In this document: piece by piece, positions 3,525-57,956 of the stretch
Layout of the letters: each line of letters begins with the position of its first letter
How positions within the stretch are numbered: position 1 is the first letter of the stretch
DNA from: Stratiformator vulcanicus
Lineage (GTDB): Bacteria > Planctomycetota > Planctomycetia > Planctomycetales > Planctomycetaceae
Reading direction: 5' to 3'
DNA length: 64,000 nt
Assembly: GCF_007744515.1 (NCBI RefSeq)
Contig: NZ_CP036268.1
Location: 2,023,712 to 2,087,711 of the forward strand
The notes under the pieces: generated by a model
The model's input: the letters and a program-made list of their open reading frames with translations, nothing else
Told to the model about the DNA's origin: nothing
Database searches by the model: none
Translations under genes and position numbers: made by a program

Positions 3525-4721
3525 ATGAAAAACAAATCACTGATTCTGTTCCTGGTCGCAGCCGGTTTCGGGCTGGTAGCCATGTTGGGCGTCATGCAGG
3601 TCATGGAAGCCAAGTCGGAAAAGGAACCGGTGGTCCGGGTGTTGGTCGCCACGACCGACATCATTCCGGGCGGCAAGCTCGATGAAACCAACTCGGCGTT
3701 CAAGGAAGTGCCGCGGAGTATGGCACCACGCGGTGCGGTGACCGATCGCAAGCAGACTGAAGGCAAAGCCCTCGTCTCTCGCGCGGTTCAAGAAGAGATT
3801 ATCGCTGAAGCGAAATTGAGTGAATCGGCGCGTCCGCCTTCAGACACCATTCCCGTCGGAATGCGGGTCGCGACGGTGAAGGTCGACTCGACCAAGAGTC
3901 ACAGCGGCCTGCTGCGACCGACCGACCGGGTGGACATTCTTTGCACCTACAAGTTGCGAGATCCCGGCGGCCAGCAAATCACGTCGACGAAAACGGTTCT
4001 CGAATTTATCGAAGTCTTCGCCACCGACAGCCTCCGCACTACGGGTGAATCAGACGGCGAGACCACCGCGAAGAACATCTCGCTGATCGTCACACCGGAG
4101 CAGGCGGCCCTGCTGAAACTCGCCGAAAATCGAGGCGAACTGCACCTGACGCTTCGTAGTAAAGAAGACACCGATGTCGCCGACACGCCGGAGGTGACTA
4201 TGGCGACGTTCATGAATACGTCCACGGTAGCGGGCGTCCGAGACAAAAAAGGCGAGAAAAAGGCGGAAGAGCCGGTCAAGACTGAAAGCCTCGGCGACTT
4301 CGTTGCTCAGAAGCAGGAAGAGGTGAAGGTTGAAGCGGCTCCGAACGAGCCCGATATCCCGACCTGGACGATCATGATTCACCGCGGCAAGGATGACGCC
4401 GAATATACCGACGTGATCGATGAAGAAGCGCTCGCCGAACTTGATCTCGATCGGGCCAAAATGCAAAAAATGCGTGCCGAGGTCGGACGCGGACAACCGG
4501 CCACTCCTGCCGTCGCCCCCGAAGATACGGATGCCGACGCGGATGCCAATCCGTGGGCGATCCCGAGTGACGGCCCGAAAGATCGGCAGTCTGGGCCGCC
4601 GAGTGGGCCTGCGGTATCTGGCGAAAGCGAGCCGGACGGAATCGAGGAAATTTTTAACGAAGAAGATGTGGAGCGAACCAAGGAAATCGGCGACGAACTC
4701 GATGTTCTTCAAAATTTCTAA
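3525..4721 (+). CDS. cpaB: Flp pilus assembly protein CpaB/RcpC
   Basis: A 398-residue periplasmic protein anchored by one N-terminal transmembrane helix (residues 5-27). Residues 37-100 form a SAF-type domain (VLVATTDIIPGGKLD), followed by the RcpC/CpaB beta domain (about 105-235) with the typical VDILCTY and ISLIVTPEQAALLKLAE segments. CpaB proteins associate with the outer-membrane secretin of Tad pili. The C-terminal 160 residues are an acidic, Pro/Glu/Asp-rich tail beyond the usual domain. A GGAG ribosome-binding site lies 8 nt before ATG 3525. Next in the cluster is cpaC. Confidence 0.93.
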   Translation: MKNKSLILFLVAAGFGLVAMLGVMQVMEAKSEKEPVVRVLVATTDIIPGGKLDETNSAFKEVPRSMAPRGAVTDRKQTEGKALVSRAVQEEIIAEAKLSESARPPSDTIPVGMRVATVKVDSTKSHSGLLRPTDRVDILCTYKLRDPGGQQITSTKTVLEFIEVFATDSLRTTGESDGETTAKNISLIVTPEQAALLKLAENRGELHLTLRSKEDTDVADTPEVTMATFMNTSTVAGVRDKKGEKKAEEPVKTESLGDFVAQKQEEVKVEAAPNEPDIPTWTIMIHRGKDDAEYTDVIDEEALAELDLDRAKMQKMRAEVGRGQPATPAVAPEDTDADADANPWAIPSDGPKDRQSGPPSGPAVSGESEPDGIEEIFNEEDVERTKEIGDELDVLQNF

Positions 4722-21523: not shown

Positions 21524-21653
21524 TGCGTCCGGTTTCGCCTCGGCCGGGAACTTCCACTCATCGGAATTCCGCGAGCAGCGCCCGATTGCGATGCGGCCTC
21601 GCGAATTATACCGTGACGAAAGTTACACGTTCCGGGTTCGGGGAGTCCCTCCA

Positions 21654-22019
21654 ATGACTGACGCGATTGAAGTCAAAACCGCTGACGATCTGGTCGAAGT
21701 TCACGCCACCGGTCACCTGACCCACCAGATGTACGTCGAAATGGTCGGGCGGATTGATGAGGTCATCAAGGCCAACGACAAGATCCGGGTGCTGTTCGTG
21801 ATGCACGACTTCAAGGGTTGGACCGCCGGGGCCCTGTGGGACGACATCAAGTTCGACATGGCCCACTGGAAAGACATCAAGCGGCTCGCCATCGTCGGCG
21901 AATCGAAGTGGGAAGAGGGCATGGCCGTCTTCTGCAAGCCCTTCACCGCCGCCAAGCTGAAATACTTCGACCACACGAAGCTCGACGACGCCCGCGAGTG
22001 GATCGTCAGCGACGACTAA
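21654..22019 (+). CDS. SpoIIAA-like (STAS/SEC14-type) protein, second tandem copy
   Basis: A 121-residue paralogue of the preceding gene, sharing DLVEVHATG, TxQMY, the LF-M-DF-GW core, IKRLAIVGE, KYFD and AREWI. It differs mainly in charge: the central KHGGD of copy 1 is AHWKD here. ATG 21654 has GGGGAG upstream. It ends 100 bp before the convergent miaB gene, with a perfect inverted repeat between them. Confidence 0.82.
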   Translation: MTDAIEVKTADDLVEVHATGHLTHQMYVEMVGRIDEVIKANDKIRVLFVMHDFKGWTAGALWDDIKFDMAHWKDIKRLAIVGESKWEEGMAVFCKPFTAAKLKYFDHTKLDDAREWIVSDD

Positions 22020-22038: not shown

Positions 22039-22110
22039 ACAAGCCGCGCACGAAGTAAGCGGATCAGAGGCGACTCTCCCGTATATCCGCTTACTTCGTG
22101 CGCGGCTTGT
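22039..22110. repeat. Perfect 26 bp inverted repeat (family A, copy 1) at a convergent gene junction
   Basis: The left arm is 22039-22064 (ACAAGCCGCGCACGAAGTAA then GCGGAT). The exact reverse complement is 22085-22110, with a 20 nt loop. It lies between the stops of the SpoIIAA-like gene (plus) and miaB (minus). The same arm sequence recurs at 25947-26016. It could act as a bidirectional transcription terminator or barrier. Confidence 0.85.
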
Positions 22111-22118
22111 AGGGGCGC

Positions 22119-23642
22119 CTATGTGAGGATCGGCAGGCCGACGTCGCAGCCGTGCTGGACGTCGTGTGTGACGATCGAGCCGATCAGCGTGGTCGTCGTG
22201 CAGTCTTCAATCGCAATCTCGGTGGAACTTCCCGCCAGTCGCGGGTTGCCCTCGAAGACCACAATCCGATCGCAGCGCGTTCGGCCGGAGAGCTGAATGG
22301 CGGGACGCGCATCTTGAGATGAGGGAGAAGCGTTTGCGTCTTCCGCTTTCCGTTTTCCGCTTTCCGCTTTTGACTCGCCTTCCACGAAGACCTTCACGCT
22401 CTTCCCGATGAACTCCGCGTTGTCCTCTTCGCTCACGGCGTTCTGGATGGCGAGCAGTTCGTTGTTGCGGCGTTTCTTATCGGCTTCGGGCACATCGTCT
22501 GCGAGCCGGTCAAACGCTTTCGTGCCGGGCCGCGGGCTGTACTTGAAGATGAAACTGTTCTTGAAGCGGAACTCCTGAATCGTCGCGATGCTCTTATCGA
22601 ATGACGCTTCCGTCTCGCCGGGATGCCCGACGATGAAGTCGCTCGAGACACTGCAGCCGGGCACGATCTCGTTGATGCGGTCCATCATCTCGCGGTACTG
22701 CGCGACGGTGTAACCGCGCTTCATCAGTTTGAGTACGTCGTCGCACCCCGATTGCAGCGGCACATGCAGATAGTGCATGCACTTGGGCAGATCGCGAATG
22801 GCTTCGAGCAAATCGCTGCCCATGTCGCGGGGGTAGTTGGTGACGAACTTGATCCGCTCGATGCCGGGCGTGTCGTGAATTTTGTGAAGCAGGTCGCTGA
22901 GCCGGTAGAGGCGACCCTCTTCGGTGTGCTTGTAACTGTTGACCGTCTGTCCGAGCAGCGTGACCTCTTTGACGCCCTGCTCCGCCAGAATGTCGACCTC
23001 CGCGGCGATGAGAGTCGGCGGCCGGCTCTGCTCAGGGCCGCGGGTCATCGGGACGACGCAGTAAGTGCAGAATTTGTCGCAGCCGATCATGATCCGCACG
23101 AACGCCTGGTGCGGCGTCGGCCGCATCTGCGGTTCACGCGTCGGATCGTAGCTCTCGAAGCTGTCGGCGACCTCGACCCGCTTGCCATCGCGTCGACCGA
23201 GGCTCAACGCTCGTTGCCGTCGCCGCGTCTGTCGGGCCTCGGCAATCAGATTTGGAATCTCGGCGAGTTGGCCTGTCCCGGCAATTAGATCGACATGGGG
23301 AGCCCGGCGGAAGATGATGTCCTGGTCTTTTTGGGCCATGCAGCCCATGACTCCGATGACCAGGCCCGGTCGCTGCCGCTTCGCATATTTTAGCCGGCCG
23401 AGCAGGCTGTAAATTTTGTGCTCAGCCCGTTCGCGCACGCTGCAGGTATTGAACAGGATCGTATCGGCCGACTTCATATCGTCGGTCAGTTCATAGCCCT
23501 GGCGGCGGAGCGCTCCGACGACGAGTTCGCTGTCGAGCACGTTCATCTGGCAGCCGACCGTCTCGATGAAGAGCTGACGGTTGTGTGTGTCGGCCGTGTT
23601 GGCGTTTGTCGTGTCGGTCGCGGTTGGAAGGGGCGAAACCAT
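22119..23642 (-). CDS. miaB: tRNA-2-methylthio-N6-dimethylallyladenosine synthase MiaB, with a linker insertion
   Basis: A 507-residue radical-SAM methylthiotransferase that acts on i6A37 of tRNAs. The N-terminal auxiliary-cluster cysteines lie in VGCQMN, NTCSVRE and GCMAQ. The radical-SAM motif is CDKFCTYC (CxxxCxxC). The C-terminal TRAM domain starts VEGESK and resumes at LSGRT. Between these, about residues 421-445, is an inserted Lys/Glu/Ala-rich segment encoded by heptamer-like repeats (22341-22370), making the protein longer than usual. There is also a 20-residue Thr/Ala/Asn-rich N-terminal extension. It is convergent with the SpoIIAA-like gene. Confidence 0.95.
   Translation of the reverse strand: MVSPLPTATDTTNANTADTHNRQLFIETVGCQMNVLDSELVVGALRRQGYELTDDMKSADTILFNTCSVRERAEHKIYSLLGRLKYAKRQRPGLVIGVMGCMAQKDQDIIFRRAPHVDLIAGTGQLAEIPNLIAEARQTRRRQRALSLGRRDGKRVEVADSFESYDPTREPQMRPTPHQAFVRIMIGCDKFCTYCVVPMTRGPEQSRPPTLIAAEVDILAEQGVKEVTLLGQTVNSYKHTEEGRLYRLSDLLHKIHDTPGIERIKFVTNYPRDMGSDLLEAIRDLPKCMHYLHVPLQSGCDDVLKLMKRGYTVAQYREMMDRINEIVPGCSVSSDFIVGHPGETEASFDKSIATIQEFRFKNSFIFKYSPRPGTKAFDRLADDVPEADKKRRNNELLAIQNAVSEEDNAEFIGKSVKVFVEGESKAESGKRKAEDANASPSSQDARPAIQLSGRTRCDRIVVFEGNPRLAGSSTEIAIEDCTTTTLIGSIVTHDVQHGCDVGLPILT
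22341..22370 (-). repeat. Heptamer-like simple repeat inside miaB
   Basis: On the plus strand the units are TTCCGCT, TTCCGTT, TTCCGCT, TTCCGCT with one extra T. On the coding strand this gives GCGGAAA-type units encoding the inserted Lys/Arg/Glu-rich stretch before the TRAM domain. Confidence 0.65.
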
Positions 23643-23757
23643 GAGCTTTGCCGTTAAATCTAAAGTTGAAGAAGTCGCTGCGGCGGAGGGAAGTAGCTAA
23701 GCTGATGAGTACGATTCCAGAGGTCAACCACCATCTGCCGTGCGGATCGTTGATGAA

Positions 23758-23868
23758 CTAGAAGCGATTTCAATACCAGCCAGAGGCGCAAGCCGACGGT
23801 CGAATAACCAGCGATTTTCCCGACGGCTTGCGCCTCGGGCTTGTATGATAGACGAATTGAAACTGCTT
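23758..23868. repeat. Palindromic dispersed element (family B, copy 1)
   Basis: An element of about 105-110 bp starting CTAGAAGCGATTTCAATACC. Its core arms 23773-23799 and 23820-23846 are reverse complements with three mismatches around a 20 nt loop. Homology with the copy at 42052-42154 (opposite orientation) extends over nearly the whole element, including the flanks outside the arms. It lies between miaB and a small membrane protein gene, both minus strand. Confidence 0.75.
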
Positions 23869-23881
23869 TTGGCGCGATGGC

Positions 23882-24103
23882 TCACGCTGCTTTGGATGCT
23901 TCTTTCTCCAATTTTTCGCGGGCCTCTTTTTCGGCTTCTCTTTGTTTTGCTTCCTCGCGAGCCTGGCGGCTCAAGTCATCGCGGAGTTTTCGGTTCAACC
24001 TTTTCCACGTCGCCCGTTCATGATCCCGCGTCATGGAAATGAAAATTTTGAACGCGAGAAACCCCGCGATCGCATAAATCAGGTGCGGCATGAAATCGAC
24101 CAT
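23882..24103 (-). CDS. Small membrane protein with a charged coiled-coil tail
   Basis: A 73-residue protein: one N-terminal transmembrane helix (LIYAIAGFLAFKIFISM), then a highly charged cytosolic tail rich in Arg/Lys/Glu (RQAREEAKQREAEKEAREKL), predicted to be a long helix or coiled coil. No family is recognised. ATG 24103 is chosen because AGGGA lies 7 nt upstream; GTG 24106 is the alternative. It lies 56 bp downstream of efp on the same strand, so co-transcription with EF-P is possible. Confidence 0.6.
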   Translation of the reverse strand: MVDFMPHLIYAIAGFLAFKIFISMTRDHERATWKRLNRKLRDDLSRQAREEAKQREAEKEAREKLEKEASKAA

Positions 24104-24159
24104 CACGACGTCCCTGTCGGATCGGATGCCAACGCGACATTGCGCGAAGCAGAAAGTGA

Positions 24160-24729
24160 TTAGTTCTTGACGCGTTCGACGTAGCTTCCGGATGCGGTAT
24201 CGATCTTGATGACGTTGCCTTCTTGAATGAAGGCGGGCACCTGCACTTCGGCGCCTCCTTCAACCGTTGCGGGCTTCGTCACGTTGGTCGCCGTATCGCC
24301 GCGGGCGGCCGGTTCCGTATAGGTGACCGACAACATCATGTGCTGCGGCGGCGTCATGTCGATCACGTTACCGTTATACAGCAACAGATCGACCTCGGCG
24401 TTCTCTTGGATAAATCGCATCTTGTCGGCGACCGAATCAGTCGGCAATGCGTACTGCTCGAACGTCTGCGACTCCATGAAGACGTAGCTGTCGCCGTCGC
24501 GGTAGAGATATTGGCCGGTCGTCTTTTGAATGTCCGCGGCATCGAGCGAATCGCCGCTGCGGAACGTCCGGTCGAGAATTCCGCCTCGCAATAAGTTGCG
24601 AAGTTTCGTCTTGTAGAGCGCTTGACCCTTGCCCGGCTTTACGAAATTGACTTCGATGATTTCATACGGCTCTCCCTCGACCTCCAGCTTGAGGCCTTTG
24701 CGAAAGTCGTTGACGTTGACTGTTGCCAT
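24160..24729 (-). CDS. efp: Translation elongation factor P
   Basis: A 189-residue EF-P, which relieves ribosome stalling at polyproline. The three OB/KOW domains are in order: KOW-like N domain (1-65), central OB (66-130, MRFIQENAEVDLLLYNGNVI) and C-terminal OB (131-189). The loop VKPGKGQAL puts Lys34 at the site that EpmA/EpmB beta-lysylate in Escherichia coli. The long upstream open frame is Arg-rich and is rejected; ATG 24729 gives the standard MATVNVNDF start. The divergent neighbour 152 bp away is epmB, the aminomutase that makes the beta-lysine donor. Confidence 0.97.
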   Translation of the reverse strand: MATVNVNDFRKGLKLEVEGEPYEIIEVNFVKPGKGQALYKTKLRNLLRGGILDRTFRSGDSLDAADIQKTTGQYLYRDGDSYVFMESQTFEQYALPTDSVADKMRFIQENAEVDLLLYNGNVIDMTPPQHMMLSVTYTEPAARGDTATNVTKPATVEGGAEVQVPAFIQEGNVIKIDTASGSYVERVKN

Positions 24730-24881
24730 GGGTTTTTCTGCGTGCCGAGCGTAGTCGATGAAACGATCGTCCGTCGGATCGAACGGAGGACCGTGTTGAA
24801 GAAGGCGGAAGTACTTAAGACAGAAACACGGACGGCGGAACAAGTTCGGTCCGAAGTCCGGTTTCGGAGAGGATAGCAGAG

Positions 24882-25916
24882 TTGGTGGAATTGGAAAATG
24901 TCGGGGCGCCGCGAGTTTCCGGCGATTTGGTCGGGCGGCGACCGGCCTATTTCGAGTCGCTCGCCCGTTCGATTCGTGACCCGGCGGAATTGCTGCGACG
25001 GCTCGATCTATCAGACGAATTGCTGCCCGCGGCCGTCCGTGGGGCGACGGAATTTCCCCTGCTAATTCCCGAAGACTACCTGAAACGGATGTCGCCCGGC
25101 GATCCGCTCGATCCGCTGCTGCGGCAGGTCCTACCACTTGATGAGGAGTTTGCAAGAGCCGAAGGGTTCGTCGACGATCCCGTCGGCGATTCCGCCGCCA
25201 GGCAGGTTGACGGATTGATCTCCAAATATCCCGGCCGGGTACTGCTCGTGTTGACCGGCTCGTGCGCGGTCCACTGCCGTTATTGCTTTCGCCGGCACTA
25301 TCCGTACGAATCCGAACCGCGGCAGCCGCGCGATTGGGAACTGGCATTGGAGACCATTCGCCGTGATTCGACGATCCACGAGGTCATACTCAGTGGTGGC
25401 GATCCGCTGATGCTGACCGATACTCGACTGGCCGAATTCCTCGCAGCGATTGAAGAAATCCCGCATTTGAATCGGTTGCGGATTCACAGCCGGCTCCCGA
25501 TCGTGCTGCCGGATCGCGTGACCGACGAGTTGATCGCGATGCTGAGTAAGACCCGGCTGACGCCGATCGTAGTCGTCCACGCCAACCACCCAAATGAAAT
25601 TGCCGGGGCGTGTTCCGACTCGCTGGGTCGATTGGTGCGTTCGGGGATCACCACGCTGAATCAGGCCGTGCTGCTTAAAGGTGTCAATGATTCGGCTCAG
25701 TCGCTCATCGAACTCAGCGAGCGACTGATCGATCTGGGTGTGATGCCCTACTACCTGCACCAACTCGACCGCGTCCGCGGTGCCGCTCACTTCGAAGTCA
25801 GCGAATCGACGGGGCGAAAACTCGTCGCCCAGATGCGAAGTAAATTGCCCGGCTACGCCGTCCCGCAATACGTCCGCGAGATCGCCGGTGAGGCGTCCAA
25901 GACGCCGCTTTTTTGA
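24882..25916 (+). CDS. epmB: EF-P beta-lysylation protein EpmB (lysine 2,3-aminomutase-like radical SAM enzyme)
   Basis: A 344-residue enzyme that converts (S)-alpha-lysine to (R)-beta-lysine for EF-P modification. The radical-SAM cluster motif is CAVHCRYC (Cys128, Cys132, Cys135). VILSGGDPLMLTD and HSRLPIVLPDRV are family signatures. Lys340 in EASKTPLF sits where the PLP-binding lysine is expected. It is shorter than clostridial lysine aminomutase (about 415), which fits EpmB. The start is TTG 24882 with GAGAGG upstream; GTG 24885 is possible. It diverges from efp, supporting the assignment. The partner ligase EpmA is not in the window. Confidence 0.93.
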   Translation: MVELENVGAPRVSGDLVGRRPAYFESLARSIRDPAELLRRLDLSDELLPAAVRGATEFPLLIPEDYLKRMSPGDPLDPLLRQVLPLDEEFARAEGFVDDPVGDSAARQVDGLISKYPGRVLLVLTGSCAVHCRYCFRRHYPYESEPRQPRDWELALETIRRDSTIHEVILSGGDPLMLTDTRLAEFLAAIEEIPHLNRLRIHSRLPIVLPDRVTDELIAMLSKTRLTPIVVVHANHPNEIAGACSDSLGRLVRSGITTLNQAVLLKGVNDSAQSLIELSERLIDLGVMPYYLHQLDRVRGAAHFEVSESTGRKLVAQMRSKLPGYAVPQYVREIAGEASKTPLF

Positions 25917-25946
25917 AGGAAAAAGCCCCACAAGCCGTGCCCCCAA

Positions 25947-26016
25947 AAGCCGCGCACGAAGTAAGCGGATGAAAAGGGAAGTTGGCCCCGTGATCCGCTT
26001 ACTTCGTGCGCGGCTT
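25947..26016. repeat. Perfect 24 bp inverted repeat (family A, copy 2) at a convergent gene junction
   Basis: Arms 25947-25970 and 25993-26016 are exact reverse complements, separated by 22 nt. They are identical in sequence to the inner 24 bp of the copy at 22039-22110, but the loop is unrelated. It lies between the stops of epmB (plus) and murD (minus), again a convergent junction. Confidence 0.85.
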
Positions 26017-26056: not shown

Positions 26057-27448
26057 TTAAGCCGCTTGTGCGCTATCTTCGGCCGCGATATCTGCGACGC
26101 ATTCGCGGAAGGTCATTCCGCGATCTCGATAGTCCTGAAACTCGCCGTAACTGGGGCAGCCGGGAGACAGCAATATCGTGTCCCCGTTCCTCGACTCACC
26201 CCATGCCCTGAGTACGGCGGCGCGAAGAGTACTGCAGCGGATCGTCCGAGCCTGCGGAGCAAAGTCTCGGAGCAGGGTCTCGATCTGAATCGCCGTTTGG
26301 CCGATCAGATAGATGGCCACGCTTGATCGGGCCGCCGCGTCGACGAGAGGGCGGAGATCGATGTCGCCATCGGCTCCGCCGACAATCAGGCGGAGTGGTT
26401 TCGGCGTGGCCTCCACGGCGGCGACCGTCGCCCGCGGCGTTGTTGATTTGGAATCGTCGACAAACGTGCGGCCGAGCGTCTGGCCGACCTGCTCCAGACG
26501 ATGCGGTAGTGGTGCGAATTCGCGAAGGCCCGTCGCGATCGCATCAATATCAACGCCGGCCGCCAATGCGGCGGTCGCAGCGGCCGCCGCGTTTTGTGAC
26601 TGATGAGGCGAATCGAGCGTCGGCGGAAGCGTCAGTGAAGTCGACACTTCCTGGTGCGACAGCTTGATTTCACCGTTCTTGACAATCGCGGTCGATTGAG
26701 TGCTCGGCCCGCCGGAGAATGTCAGCCTGTTGCCGAGAGTCTCCCACCGGCTGACGTCGAGGTCATCGGCGTTGAGCACCGCCGCGTCATTCGGCGTTTG
26801 ATAGGCGAGAATCGTCTGCTTCGACTGGCGGTAGTGCTCGACCGTGCGGTGCCAGTTCAAGTGGTTTGGTACGAAGTTCGTGACGACCGCGATCTCGGGG
26901 CTGACTTTCAGACGGCGTAGACCGTGCAACTGAAAGCTGCTCAGCTCGAGGACCACCCAGTCTTCCGGCTTGATGTCGTCGACTTCGCCGAGCAGGCTGT
27001 GGCCGATGTTGCCACCGAGGTGGCCGCCAAGACCTCCCGCCCGCAGCATGTCCGCGATCAGCGTGGCCGTCGAGGATTTCCCGACGGTGCCCGTCACACC
27101 AATGATCGGCGAACGCTTCGCGTTCCAGAACAGTTCGATTTCCGAGGAGAGCCGGACGTTCGCGAACGACGCCATCTTCAGGAAAGGACTGGACGGCGCG
27201 ACCGCCGGGCTGACCACGACCATGTCAGTATTGACGAAGTCGTTCTCACGGTGACCGCCGACGTGGATGCCTTCGAGCGGGACGTCATCGAGCGCGGCCA
27301 GTTCATCGGCCAACTCCGCCTCGGTCCGAAGGTCGGTGACCGTCACGCGTGCGCCGTGGTCGGCGAGATAGCGCGCGGCTGCGGTTCCGCCGCCGAAGCG
27401 GCCCAGTCCCATCACTGTGATTCGGCATCCGTGGTATGTGCTGCTCAT
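26057..27448 (-). CDS. murD: UDP-N-acetylmuramoylalanine-D-glutamate ligase
   Basis: A 463-residue cytosolic Mur ligase that adds D-glutamate in peptidoglycan precursor synthesis. The N-terminal Rossmann part is ITVMGLGRFGGGTAAARYL, the ATP loop is GVTGTVGKSSTATLI, and the C-terminal domain has FVDDSKSTTPRATVAA, where Lys and Ser contact substrate. ATG 27448 gives a normal N-terminus; the 32 upstream codons are not family-like. It is relevant because planctomycetes were long thought to lack peptidoglycan. It is convergent with epmB. Confidence 0.94.
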   Translation of the reverse strand: MSSTYHGCRITVMGLGRFGGGTAAARYLADHGARVTVTDLRTEAELADELAALDDVPLEGIHVGGHRENDFVNTDMVVVSPAVAPSSPFLKMASFANVRLSSEIELFWNAKRSPIIGVTGTVGKSSTATLIADMLRAGGLGGHLGGNIGHSLLGEVDDIKPEDWVVLELSSFQLHGLRRLKVSPEIAVVTNFVPNHLNWHRTVEHYRQSKQTILAYQTPNDAAVLNADDLDVSRWETLGNRLTFSGGPSTQSTAIVKNGEIKLSHQEVSTSLTLPPTLDSPHQSQNAAAAATAALAAGVDIDAIATGLREFAPLPHRLEQVGQTLGRTFVDDSKSTTPRATVAAVEATPKPLRLIVGGADGDIDLRPLVDAAARSSVAIYLIGQTAIQIETLLRDFAPQARTIRCSTLRAAVLRAWGESRNGDTILLSPGCPSYGEFQDYRDRGMTFRECVADIAAEDSAQAA

Positions 27449-27526
27449 AGGCAGCGCATACCAGAAAAGCCCGTCATCGCGATAGATCGAATTGAGAAGC
27501 GGAGCAGCGGGGGACGCCGTTTTAAT

Positions 27527-27555
27527 GAGGTCCCGTGCTCGCACTGCGGGCTTGT
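27527..27555 (-). repeat. Family C repeat copy after the stop of the small secreted protein gene
   Basis: Read on the minus strand, this is ACAAGCCCGCAGTGCGAGCA followed by CGGGACCTC, starting 6 nt after the stop codon at 27562. It matches the copy at 1611-1639 at 24 of 29 positions. Confidence 0.65.
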
Positions 27556-48760: not shown

Positions 48761-48832
48761 TTCGCCACAAGACGTTTAGCCGCGACCGCCAGGAAGCGCG
48801 GCGGAAATCGGTATGACCCCCTTCGACGACAG

Positions 48833-49492
48833 ATGCGATCAATTATGGTCGAACCCGTGACCGAACCCCCTGAGCGAGAGCAAGCCGATGACGCGGCGCG
48901 CTCCCTTTCGGTCGCGGCTAAACGCGAATGGAACATTCCCAACGCGATCACCGTGTCGCGATTGTTCGCGGCGTTTGTGCTGTTCGGGATGATTTCGCTG
49001 ACCGATGCGTGGATCACCTCTGCGGTGCTCTTTGTGGTCGCGGTGGCGACCGACGCCATTGATGGGTATCTCGCCCGGAGATGGAACCAGATCACCGTCA
49101 CGGGACGGATTCTCGATCCGTTTGTCGACAAGATCATTGTGGGCGGCGCGTTCATCTTTCTGATCGAACGCAACGTCGGCGACGGTCCGACCTCCGGCGT
49201 CAACGCATTGATGACGGTGATCGTGATCGGTCGCGAAATGTTCGTTACTGGGCTGCGAAGTTTCGTCGAGCGGCAGGGGCTCGATTTCTCTGCCGACAAC
49301 CTCGGTAAGGCGAAAATGGTGCTGCAGTGTGTGGCAGTGACGGTCGTGTTGCTGTCGATGTCGCCGACTTTCAGGCAATGGCCGCAATTCGTCTTGATGC
49401 GTGACGTACTCCTTTGGGCGACCGTCGCCGTGACGGCGTATAGCGGGGTCGCGTATACGGTGAGGGCGGTGCGCGTGATGCGGGCGGGCTAA
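48833..49492 (+). CDS. pgsA: CDP-diacylglycerol-glycerol-3-phosphate 3-phosphatidyltransferase
   Basis: A 219-residue inner-membrane enzyme making phosphatidylglycerophosphate. The CDP-alcohol phosphotransferase motif is complete: DAIDGYLARR, then TGRILDPFVDK (D-x2-DG-x2-AR...G-x3-D-x3-D). About five hydrophobic helices follow a 35-residue polar N-terminus. ATG 48833 and ATG 48845 are both possible starts. It lies 72 bp downstream of rimO in the same orientation. Confidence 0.93.
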   Translation: MRSIMVEPVTEPPEREQADDAARSLSVAAKREWNIPNAITVSRLFAAFVLFGMISLTDAWITSAVLFVVAVATDAIDGYLARRWNQITVTGRILDPFVDKIIVGGAFIFLIERNVGDGPTSGVNALMTVIVIGREMFVTGLRSFVERQGLDFSADNLGKAKMVLQCVAVTVVLLSMSPTFRQWPQFVLMRDVLLWATVAVTAYSGVAYTVRAVRVMRAG

Positions 49493-56316: not shown

Positions 56317-57956
56317 GCAATTTATTGTTGAGAACGACTACTGCGATCCGAGCCCGAGGCGCGAACCGTCGGGAGCGCACCCAGCCGAACGTCCCGACGG
56401 CTCGCGCCTCGGGCTGGTATGAAGACATAAGACGATTGTCCTGCGCGATTATCCTCGCGTGGTTTGCGTTGCCCGCGATGGCTCAAGAGGCCGCGGAACC
56501 GGCGCCAAAAATCACGATCGGATCGAAGACCTTCACCGAATCGGTCATTCTCGGTGAGATCGTCGCGGCCGTCGCGCGAGAGGCCGGGGCGGAGGTGATC
56601 CATCAACGGCAACTCGGCGGGACCGAGGTCGTCTGGAACGCTCTGAAGTCGGGCGGGGTTGACCTCTACCCCGATTACACGGGAACCCTGCGCGTCGATC
56701 TGTTCGACGATCTGAACCTTGAAACGGATTCGGAGTTGCGGGCGGAGCTGAACAAGCTCGGCCTCTCGATGAGCGAGCCGCTCGGCTTCCAAAACACTTA
56801 TGCCATCGGAATGCTGAAAGGCCGTGCGGCCGAGTTGGGAATTGAGACCATTTCCGATCTGCGTGATCACCCCGACTTGAAGTTCGGCTTTAATCACGAG
56901 TTCTTGCAACGATCAGACGGTTGGCCCGGTCTGCGTGATGCGTATCGTCTGCCGCAGCGCGATCCGATCGGCCTCGATCATCAGCTTTCCTATGTGGCAT
57001 TAACGAGCGGCAAGATCGACGCGGTCGAGGTGTATTCGACTGATGCGAAAATCGCTCAGCTCGGGCTGACAGTCCTCGAAGACGACCGCAATTTCTTCCC
57101 CGATTACAGCGCCGTCCTCGTCTACCGCCAGGATTTGGCTGAGCGGGCCCCGGAGGTTCTGCGGAACATCCTGACATTGGAAGGGGCGATCTCTGAAGAG
57201 CAGATGCGCGGCATGAATTCAACTGCCGAACCGCCCGAGGGACGGGGCGAGCCGGAGTCGGTCATCGCGGTCGAGTTCGTGAACGAAAAGTTCGGTTTGT
57301 CCGCCGTCGCGACGACACGGAGTCTCGCCGAACGGATTTGGCTTCGTACGAAGCAGCATCTCCTGCTGGTTGGAATCTCGGCAATCATGGCGATTCTGAC
57401 GGCGGTGCCATTGGGCATTGTGGCGACGAAGTTTCCCGCCGTCGGGCGAGTCATTCTGACCGTTGTGGGCTTGCTCCAAACGATTCCGTCGCTGGTCTTA
57501 TTCGTTCTGGCCATTCCGATTTTTGACATCGGGATGACGCCGGCGATTGTCGCCCTGTTTCTATACAGCCTGTTGCCGATCGTGCGGAACACGCATTCGG
57601 GACTGATCGGTATTCCTCGCGGTGTGCGCGAGTCGGCCGAAGTCCTCGGTTTGCCGCCGCTGGCCCGGATGCGGCTCGTTGAATTGCCGCTGGCGGCACC
57701 GTCGATTCTCGCGGGAATCAAGACCGCGATTGTGATCAACGTCGGCACCGCGACGCTCGGCGGATTCATCGGCGCCGGAGGATACGGCGAGCCGATCTTC
57801 GCGGGATTGCGGAAACAGGACACGTGGCTGATGCTGGAAGGGGCGATCCCCGCCGCGGTGATGGCACTGGCGTTTCAAACCCTGTTCGACATTCTGGAGA
57901 GGGTCATCGTGTCTCCCGGACTGCGTCACGCGAGTTCGTCGCATTCTGAAAATTGA
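56313..57956 (+). CDS. ABC transporter substrate-binding/permease fusion, QAT type, with a palindromic repeat in its leader
   Basis: A 547-residue protein. From residue about 60 to 335 it is an OpuCC-like binding protein (ITIGSKTFTESVILGEI, QLGGTEVVWNALKSG, DLYPDYTGTL). From about 350 to 540 it is a permease with five or six helices and the EAA loop (GLPPLARMRLVELPLAAPS). The order (binding domain first) is opposite to the permease-first fusions best known in this family. The leader is odd: a 65 bp palindromic element encodes residues 13-35, giving a long Arg-rich N-region before the hydrophobic segment. GTG 56313 overlaps the ATPase stop; TTG 56436, after the repeat, is an alternative start. 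Confidence 0.88.
   Translation: MSNLLLRTTTAIRARGANRRERTQPNVPTARASGWYEDIRRLSCAIILAWFALPAMAQEAAEPAPKITIGSKTFTESVILGEIVAAVAREAGAEVIHQRQLGGTEVVWNALKSGGVDLYPDYTGTLRVDLFDDLNLETDSELRAELNKLGLSMSEPLGFQNTYAIGMLKGRAAELGIETISDLRDHPDLKFGFNHEFLQRSDGWPGLRDAYRLPQRDPIGLDHQLSYVALTSGKIDAVEVYSTDAKIAQLGLTVLEDDRNFFPDYSAVLVYRQDLAERAPEVLRNILTLEGAISEEQMRGMNSTAEPPEGRGEPESVIAVEFVNEKFGLSAVATTRSLAERIWLRTKQHLLLVGISAIMAILTAVPLGIVATKFPAVGRVILTVVGLLQTIPSLVLFVLAIPIFDIGMTPAIVALFLYSLLPIVRNTHSGLIGIPRGVRESAEVLGLPPLARMRLVELPLAAPSILAGIKTAIVINVGTATLGGFIGAGGYGEPIFAGLRKQDTWLMLEGAIPAAVMALAFQTLFDILERVIVSPGLRHASSSHSEN
56351..56415. repeat. Palindromic element core (family B, copy 3) inside a coding leader
   Basis: Arms 56351-56374 and 56392-56415 are reverse complements with one mismatch, around a 17 nt loop. 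The arm AGCCCGAGGCGCGAACCGTC matches the core arm of copies at 23758 and 42052. The flanking homology seen in those copies is absent. It is in frame within the 56313 reading frame. Confidence 0.8.

Follow-up and report, generated by a model that had tools for sequence, protein, structure and literature searches.

In a 64,000-nucleotide stretch of the chromosome of Stratiformator vulcanicus (contig NZ_CP036268.1, positions 2,023,712 to 2,087,711; hereafter the window), two long perfect hairpins lie between convergent genes, and these are very probably REP doublets forming hairpins (REPINs), namely inverted doublets of a 26-nt repetitive extragenic palindrome (REP) unit that has multiplied between genes. 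The repeat, here called family A, is an unrecorded member of the REP/REPIN kind, unusual in having a core common to distant planctomycetes and no matching REP-associated tyrosine transposase (RAYT) in this genome; the literature, searched by family terms and not by sequence, yielded no description of it. Elsewhere in Planctomycetota its 21-nt core, RAGCCGCGCACGNAGTAAGCGG, serves as REP to a single clade of Y1 HuH transposases, RAYTs resembling the 'class 3' TnpA-Y1 proteins.

The repeat unit and its copies

Doublet 1 consists of a left arm, ACAAGCCGCGCACGAAGTAAGCGGAT, at 22039-22064 on the plus strand and an inverted right arm at 22085-22110 on the minus strand, both of 26 nt and 100% identical, separated by a 20-nt loop (22065-22084). 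Doublet 2 has 24-nt arms, again 100% identical, at 25947-25970 (plus) and 25993-26016 (minus) around a 22-nt loop (25971-25992); the outer two bases of its left arm read AA where the 26-nt unit has AC, and on the right the unit extends to 26018. The first-pass annotation of the window had described two perfect inverted repeats with one arm sequence and unrelated loops, and the inverted-repeat scan of the window agrees on the arms, a 20-mer of which has four matches there at up to three mismatches (0.01 expected in shuffles). The loops are indeed unrelated, as neither window doublet is among the 45 similar loop pairs described below. A scan of the window against Rfam gave no match above threshold.

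The genome-wide search for the arm proposed in that annotation recovered 173 arms at up to two mismatches (74 forward, 99 reverse), and the reversed control recovered none. The genome is a single contig of 5.23 Mb, 98.7% complete, of which 1.264 Mb was examined: 43 stretches taken around sites and 17 as controls, in addition to the window. This DNA holds 160 arms at up to four mismatches (149 at up to two), grouped into 87 elements; 24 of the 173 arms lie outside it, and diverged singlets are under-sampled. The control stretches contain no arm, a zero that is partly by design because they were picked away from listed exact sites. A 26-nt unit in 173 copies falls within the short (20-40 nt), high-copy range of REPs, and inverted doublets dominate as they do in REPINs: 48 of the 87 elements are inward inverted doublets, the others being 24 singlets, 5 direct pairs and 10 larger arrangements, and the 53 two-arm elements divide into 48 inward, 5 direct and none outward.

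Conservation is confined to the 26-nt unit, dropping to background at once on its outer side and fading over a few bases on its inner side. The unit reads as a foot, ACAAG, followed by CCGC, 11 nt, GCGG and a final AT; it is thus itself a weak palindrome, whose centre is the position most tolerant of change. Within doublets, 48 changes affect one arm and 4 are matched in both (permutation mean 1.9, largest 6), and since changes mostly strike a single arm, it is the 26-nt unit that seems to be kept and not its pairing. The suggestion that arm identity implies recent spread or active maintenance fits these data, but with the qualification that what is maintained would be the unit and not the pairing of its two copies.

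Loops are 10-29 nt long in 45 of the 48 doublets. Out of 1035 loop pairs, 45 score at least 0.2, compared with 0.16% of shuffled pairs. When flanks are compared in every orientation, 26 of the 45 also share a flank and are therefore part of larger duplications, in some of which the hairpin has been flipped between its arms. An earlier argument that the doublet jumps as a unit, built on 15 loop pairs with unrelated flanks, was withdrawn after this comparison, in which 22 of the 31 pairs scoring at least 0.6 share a flank; confidence in the REPIN reading fell slightly as a result. There remain 19 pairs without a shared flank, 14 of them outside one cluster, where fewer than two would be expected by chance; transposition of whole doublets as units is weakly supported by these pairs. 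A stretch running from position 4092 of locus L042 to 4689 of L043 (G000:C1, about 1616000-1636700) is densely clustered with family-A elements, many of which have one 10-nt loop and longer flanks in common, and a larger unit has therefore been duplicated there. Elsewhere, three distant doublets (L069 7578, L072 3488 and L059 13651) have the same 13-nt loop and related flanks, the latter looking like the GTGGC-type repeat of a resident Y1 gene, L091; in some of them the loop is turned round relative to the flank, which may reflect an inversion of the DNA between the arms, or the transport of one REPIN within another.

Placement relative to genes

Both window doublets lie between the stop codons of convergent genes, as first described. 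Doublet 1 is bounded by a SpoIIAA/STAS-like gene (21591-22019, plus strand; start uncertain, 21654 in the script's gene calls) that stops 19 nt before it and by miaB (22119-23642, minus strand), which stops 8 nt after it. Doublet 2 is bounded by epmB, encoding the EF-P beta-lysylation protein (24885-25916, plus strand), which stops 28 nt before it, and by murD (26057-27544, minus strand), which stops 38 nt after it. Throughout the examined DNA, where genes were called by a home-made codon-pair script, placement is extragenic as in REPs: one of the 87 elements lies wholly inside a predicted gene, and three more overlap a gene end by 20-37 nt.

Three elements lack a neighbour on one side of their stretch. 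The 83 that were placed comprise 23 in convergent, 56 in co-directional and 4 in divergent gaps, against a background of 12-16% convergent and 13-26% divergent gaps that varies with the minimum length and the set. Convergent gaps are thus enriched about twofold (binomial P 0.0002 against 12.5%, 0.006 against 16%) and divergent gaps depleted (P 0.02 to 2.7e-5 against 13-22%); doublets alone (n=46) include 14 convergent (P 0.001-0.014) and 2 divergent (P 0.12-0.002). The proposal that the elements are targeted to convergent junctions is therefore too strong as a rule, most copies being co-directional, and only the enrichment is retained. What had been named as evidence against targeting, copies spread equally through genes and over divergent or co-directional junctions, is seen in the co-directional majority but not in gene interiors or in the depleted divergent gaps. 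Within co-directional gaps, 46 of the 56 elements lie closer to the stop codon than to the start (median 28.5 nt, versus 139.5 nt to the start), and the common factor in placement is closeness to a stop codon. A history in which copies inserted between genes and were then purged from promoters would yield this pattern.

Such placement also speaks for an explanation raised in the first-pass annotation that now appears improbable, namely portable bidirectional terminators of transcription, here taken to be retained at the ends of genes through selection. As RNA the window doublets would be very stable (about -54 kcal/mol, z -12 and -10), elements hug stop codons with convergent gaps enriched, and 26 of the 48 one-arm changes would retain a G-U pair on one strand. 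However, four Ts occur within 12 nt downstream on only 1 of 96 doublet sides, against a background of 2.5%, with no excess of T-runs, such that the stem followed by a T-run that marks an intrinsic terminator is not seen; a terminator scan of the window, restricted to loops of 3-8 nt, listed none of the arms. The scarcity of matched arm changes, the preponderance of co-directional gaps and the 31 of 87 elements that are singlets or purely direct arrays, unable to form a long stem, further argue against termination as the property under selection.

A transposase clade flanked by the repeat in other genomes

REPs are mostly species-specific. The family-A core occurs in at least 120 stretches in 24 named genomes among the matches listed, at least 110 of these stretches being labelled planctomycetes and at least 10 coming from three metagenome-assembled genomes (MAGs) labelled Myxococcales or Acidobacteria. 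The core is both rare and patchy across Planctomycetota: with up to two mismatches allowed and S. vulcanicus itself counted, 6 genomes out of 150 from its family carry it, as do 5 out of 170 from its order and 3 out of 392 from its phylum. The S. vulcanicus genome has more arms than any other counted whole.

The link to a transposase comes from a Gemmataceae MAG in which a Y1 gene (L231) has family-A arms on both sides. With the L231 protein as query, a RAYT of at least 57% identity was found in 5 of the 24 listed named carriers, the source of the query included, and family-A arms flank this gene on both sides in all five, as a REP flanks its RAYT. Together with the dispersed arms and the inverted doublets, these flanked genes bear out the REP-like nature proposed for the hairpins. 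The A-flanked RAYTs are 57-67% identical to each other, and the 21-nt core is nearly identical in distant planctomycetes. Four of the five could be aligned, and they form one clade (Shimodaira-Hasegawa-like approximate likelihood ratio test 96) apart from the four resident S. vulcanicus RAYTs in the tree; 21 of 500 label shuffles were as clustered. Of 50 distinct Y1 loci with long alignments, a set in which the fifth A-flanked gene was too broken for inclusion and not every protein-search match had a locus, 4 are A-flanked, one (L096) has interspersed arms, one (L380) has a single weak arm and 44 have none. Among the 392 phylum genomes, with at most nine candidates per genome scored, the best match at E 1e-30 was 46% identical.

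The L231 protein is a Y1 transposase by profile (PF01797, Y1_Tnp, 25.6 bits with a cut-off of 23) and reaches 24.1 of the 55 bits of the IS200 model. The three intact A-clade proteins carry NHVH or NHMH and Y----Q, so that both motifs are present in three of the four aligned, the fourth (L326) being shortened. Two of the five genes are damaged (L369 1148-1741 in G098; L351 1425-2083 in G538), and their flanking arms persist; these are possible stages toward an orphan population. Three further loci were left out of the five: L240, another, distinct Y1 gene of the Gemmataceae MAG, where the family-A arms stand at a greater distance; L267, a Y1-like gene that has a doublet next to it on one side only; and L380, with its one weak arm.

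The core was also seen in less expected sequence. Five stretches on four viral-labelled contigs (L296-L300) carry it, with no Y1 gene in the portions examined, and these contigs may be host DNA or carriers. In a Myxococcales-labelled MAG (L183, L185, L211, L249, L251 and other CAIXZC loci) the core has the foot CCAAG, and among other carriers an A before AGCC was seen only in this MAG and in one arm of L203; contamination by planctomycete contigs is a possible source of the core there.

The five flanked genes bear on two further alternatives. A miniature inverted-repeat transposable element, non-autonomous, bounded by terminal inverted repeats and moved by a DDE transposase that leaves target duplications, would account for inverted arms facing inward around a variable middle, but is very improbable given that arms are found by themselves and in direct arrays as well, and that the arm-flanked enzyme gene is of the Y1 HuH kind. 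Least credible is an uptake-signal-like sequence that also pairs up as terminators, as modelled by the DNA uptake sequences of Neisseria, for despite many near-identical copies, often in inverted pairs, this is a 26-nt unit with an internal palindrome in about 170 copies outside genes, tied elsewhere to a RAYT clade.

How REPINs of family A would arise can be set out by analogy with the TnpA-REP system of Escherichia coli, as given in the available part of that account (PMC8266576): the RAYT would pick out the unit in single-stranded form, cleave next to it and join it again. Copies would be made by this activity, with whole doublets jumping, in a genome that once had or met such a RAYT; selection would remove insertions from genes and promoters, and copies lying close to 3' ends may have come into use as structures in RNA or DNA.

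Resident transposases and the 5' foot

The chromosome of the window carries 11 Y1_Tnp genes, each bracketed by a repeat distinct from family A. Of 13 further k-mer families that are frequent in the examined DNA, 8 match one of these resident Y1 loci. Because PF01797 can miss the A clade (the G098:C933 gene was found only by protein search), the absence of an A-clade RAYT here rests on the protein search. A hidden Markov model search over all frames of the examined DNA for hidden Y1 genes near the sites recovered only the four genes already known, and extra phmmer matches of L091 are probably its stop-to-stop frame, translating a doublet plus its repeat. No transposase was noticed on reading by eye the translations of genes lying between locally repeated doublets in three clusters. 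The search for a RAYT that the first-pass annotation called for thus succeeded in other genomes and gave no close match in its own, and family A here is apparently an orphan population.

Within S. vulcanicus no RAYT is flanked by family A as a REP would flank its own; arms lie on one side of L091 and interspersed near L096. Both genes were set aside as mobilisers, L091 because the doublet just upstream sits inside the gene's own two-sided repeat, which is of the GTGGCACGGAC type, and L096 because its nearby arms are singlets in one orientation, embedded in a tandem that belongs to a different family. Of the four resident RAYTs compared, L097 comes nearest to every one of the four A-clade proteins. 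The L097 repeat has AGCCGCG..AAGCGGATC in common with family A, in copies without ACAAG; L097 may be the enzyme acting on family A.

The foot differs between S. vulcanicus and other carriers. At least 142 of 159 arms in S. vulcanicus have ACAAG, whereas 25 of 27 other carriers have G before AGCCGCG (GAG), in a scan whose pattern admitted A or G only. ACAAG is also borne by resident REP families, in 16 of 28 copies for L095 and 44 of 62 for L099. One proposal, which we think rather unlikely, is tag capture, whereby family A, its own transposase having been lost or never present, was taken over in trans by resident sister-clade RAYTs through a change from GAG to ACAAG. The data are explained equally well by a founder copy whose foot had changed, or by L097 as the more closely related resident, and the closeness of L097, in whose copies ACAAG is lacking, slightly lowers the odds of tag capture.

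Two other repeats of the window touch on these resident genes. A second REP family (ACAAGCCCGAGGCGCAAGCCGTCGGGA type), which flanks L095 on both sides, has window doublets at 23773-23846 (ACAAGCCCGAGGCGCAAGCCG.. type), between the two family-A hairpins, and at 56346-56420. A 31-nt imperfect inverted repeat at 48773-48924 (AGCCGCGACCG..GGAAGCG) resembles the repeat around L097.

Several observations weigh against reading the hairpins as REPINs of an A-clade RAYT. No A-clade RAYT was found in the window's chromosome by protein search, the matches being 32-38% identical to the L231 protein; identity of the resident proteins with the three intact members of the A clade is 33-43%, and with the shortened one up to 49%. 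Elsewhere, 19 of the 24 listed named carriers, many of them fragmented MAGs, showed no A-clade RAYT, and carrier G040 has four arms and no Y1 match. The L231 protein attains 25.2 of 80 bits against the NCBIfam model REP_Tyr_transpos, far below its cut-off. A single unit folds weakly on its own (-6.2 kcal/mol, z -1.3), and the foot, while fixed as a REP tag would be, is neither GT[AG]G (GTAG or GTGG) nor a clear instance of the CnGA described for class 3. Doublets paired by similar loops mostly share a flank and belong to larger duplications, and just four strong pairs without a shared flank lie outside the one cluster. Finally, no exact empty site was present among relatives' loci.

Around miaB or epmB, 55 loci of relatives have no family-A arm at up to five mismatches, which is expected because those genomes are mostly without family A. 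EpmB and murD occur together in 2 of the 25 best epmB loci of relatives, once with hundreds of bases between them and once with overlapping stops and no element between; the element is therefore not needed for the epmB/murD junction. A STAS gene beside miaB was found in no relative examined.

Relation to known repeat systems

The nearest model is the REPINs and RAYT of Pseudomonas fluorescens SBW25, which, in the available part of their description (PMC3116915), are likewise made of a short conserved unit in inverted doublets with less conserved spacers, lie outside genes and have a unit that flanks a Y1 transposase, as family A does in other genomes. Family A differs in that its host chromosome yielded no RAYT of the corresponding clade, in its ACAAG foot, in window arms that are fully complementary over 24-26 bp, in a core common to distant planctomycetes, and in the weaker support for the doublet as the jumping unit.

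The A clade appears to resemble class 3 TnpA-Y1, a likeness of motifs (the NHVH or NHMH and Y----Q of the three intact proteins). In the accessible text of PMC6006769, class 3 is reported in Planctomycetes, Acidobacteria and Proteobacteria, with high-copy atypical REP-like structures around the gene, and each REP type is described as generally paired with one full-length tnpA gene. The foot there is CnGA, whereas family A, compared by eye, has mostly GAG, or ACAAG here, before its CCGC/GCGG stem. The GTAG- and CGTC-tagged palindromic repeats, in the portion of PMC3733652 at hand, are similar as tagged palindromes occurring as singlets, dimers and groups with variable spacers, but family A carries neither tag; that portion mentions GTAG repeats in the Planctomycetes-Verrucomicrobia-Chlamydiae (PVC) superphylum and does not mention the family-A unit.

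Significance

Family A is a warning against taking every long perfect hairpin at the end of a planctomycete gene for a terminator. Tag capture, if true, would explain how some 170 copies exist without a cognate RAYT, and would mean that the pairing of REP and RAYT is exchangeable. A near-constant core, RAYTs that have drifted and a genome with 173 arms and no close RAYT together form a natural experiment on the stringency with which RAYTs recognise their REPs, and the orphan family likewise tests what keeps orphan REPs intact.

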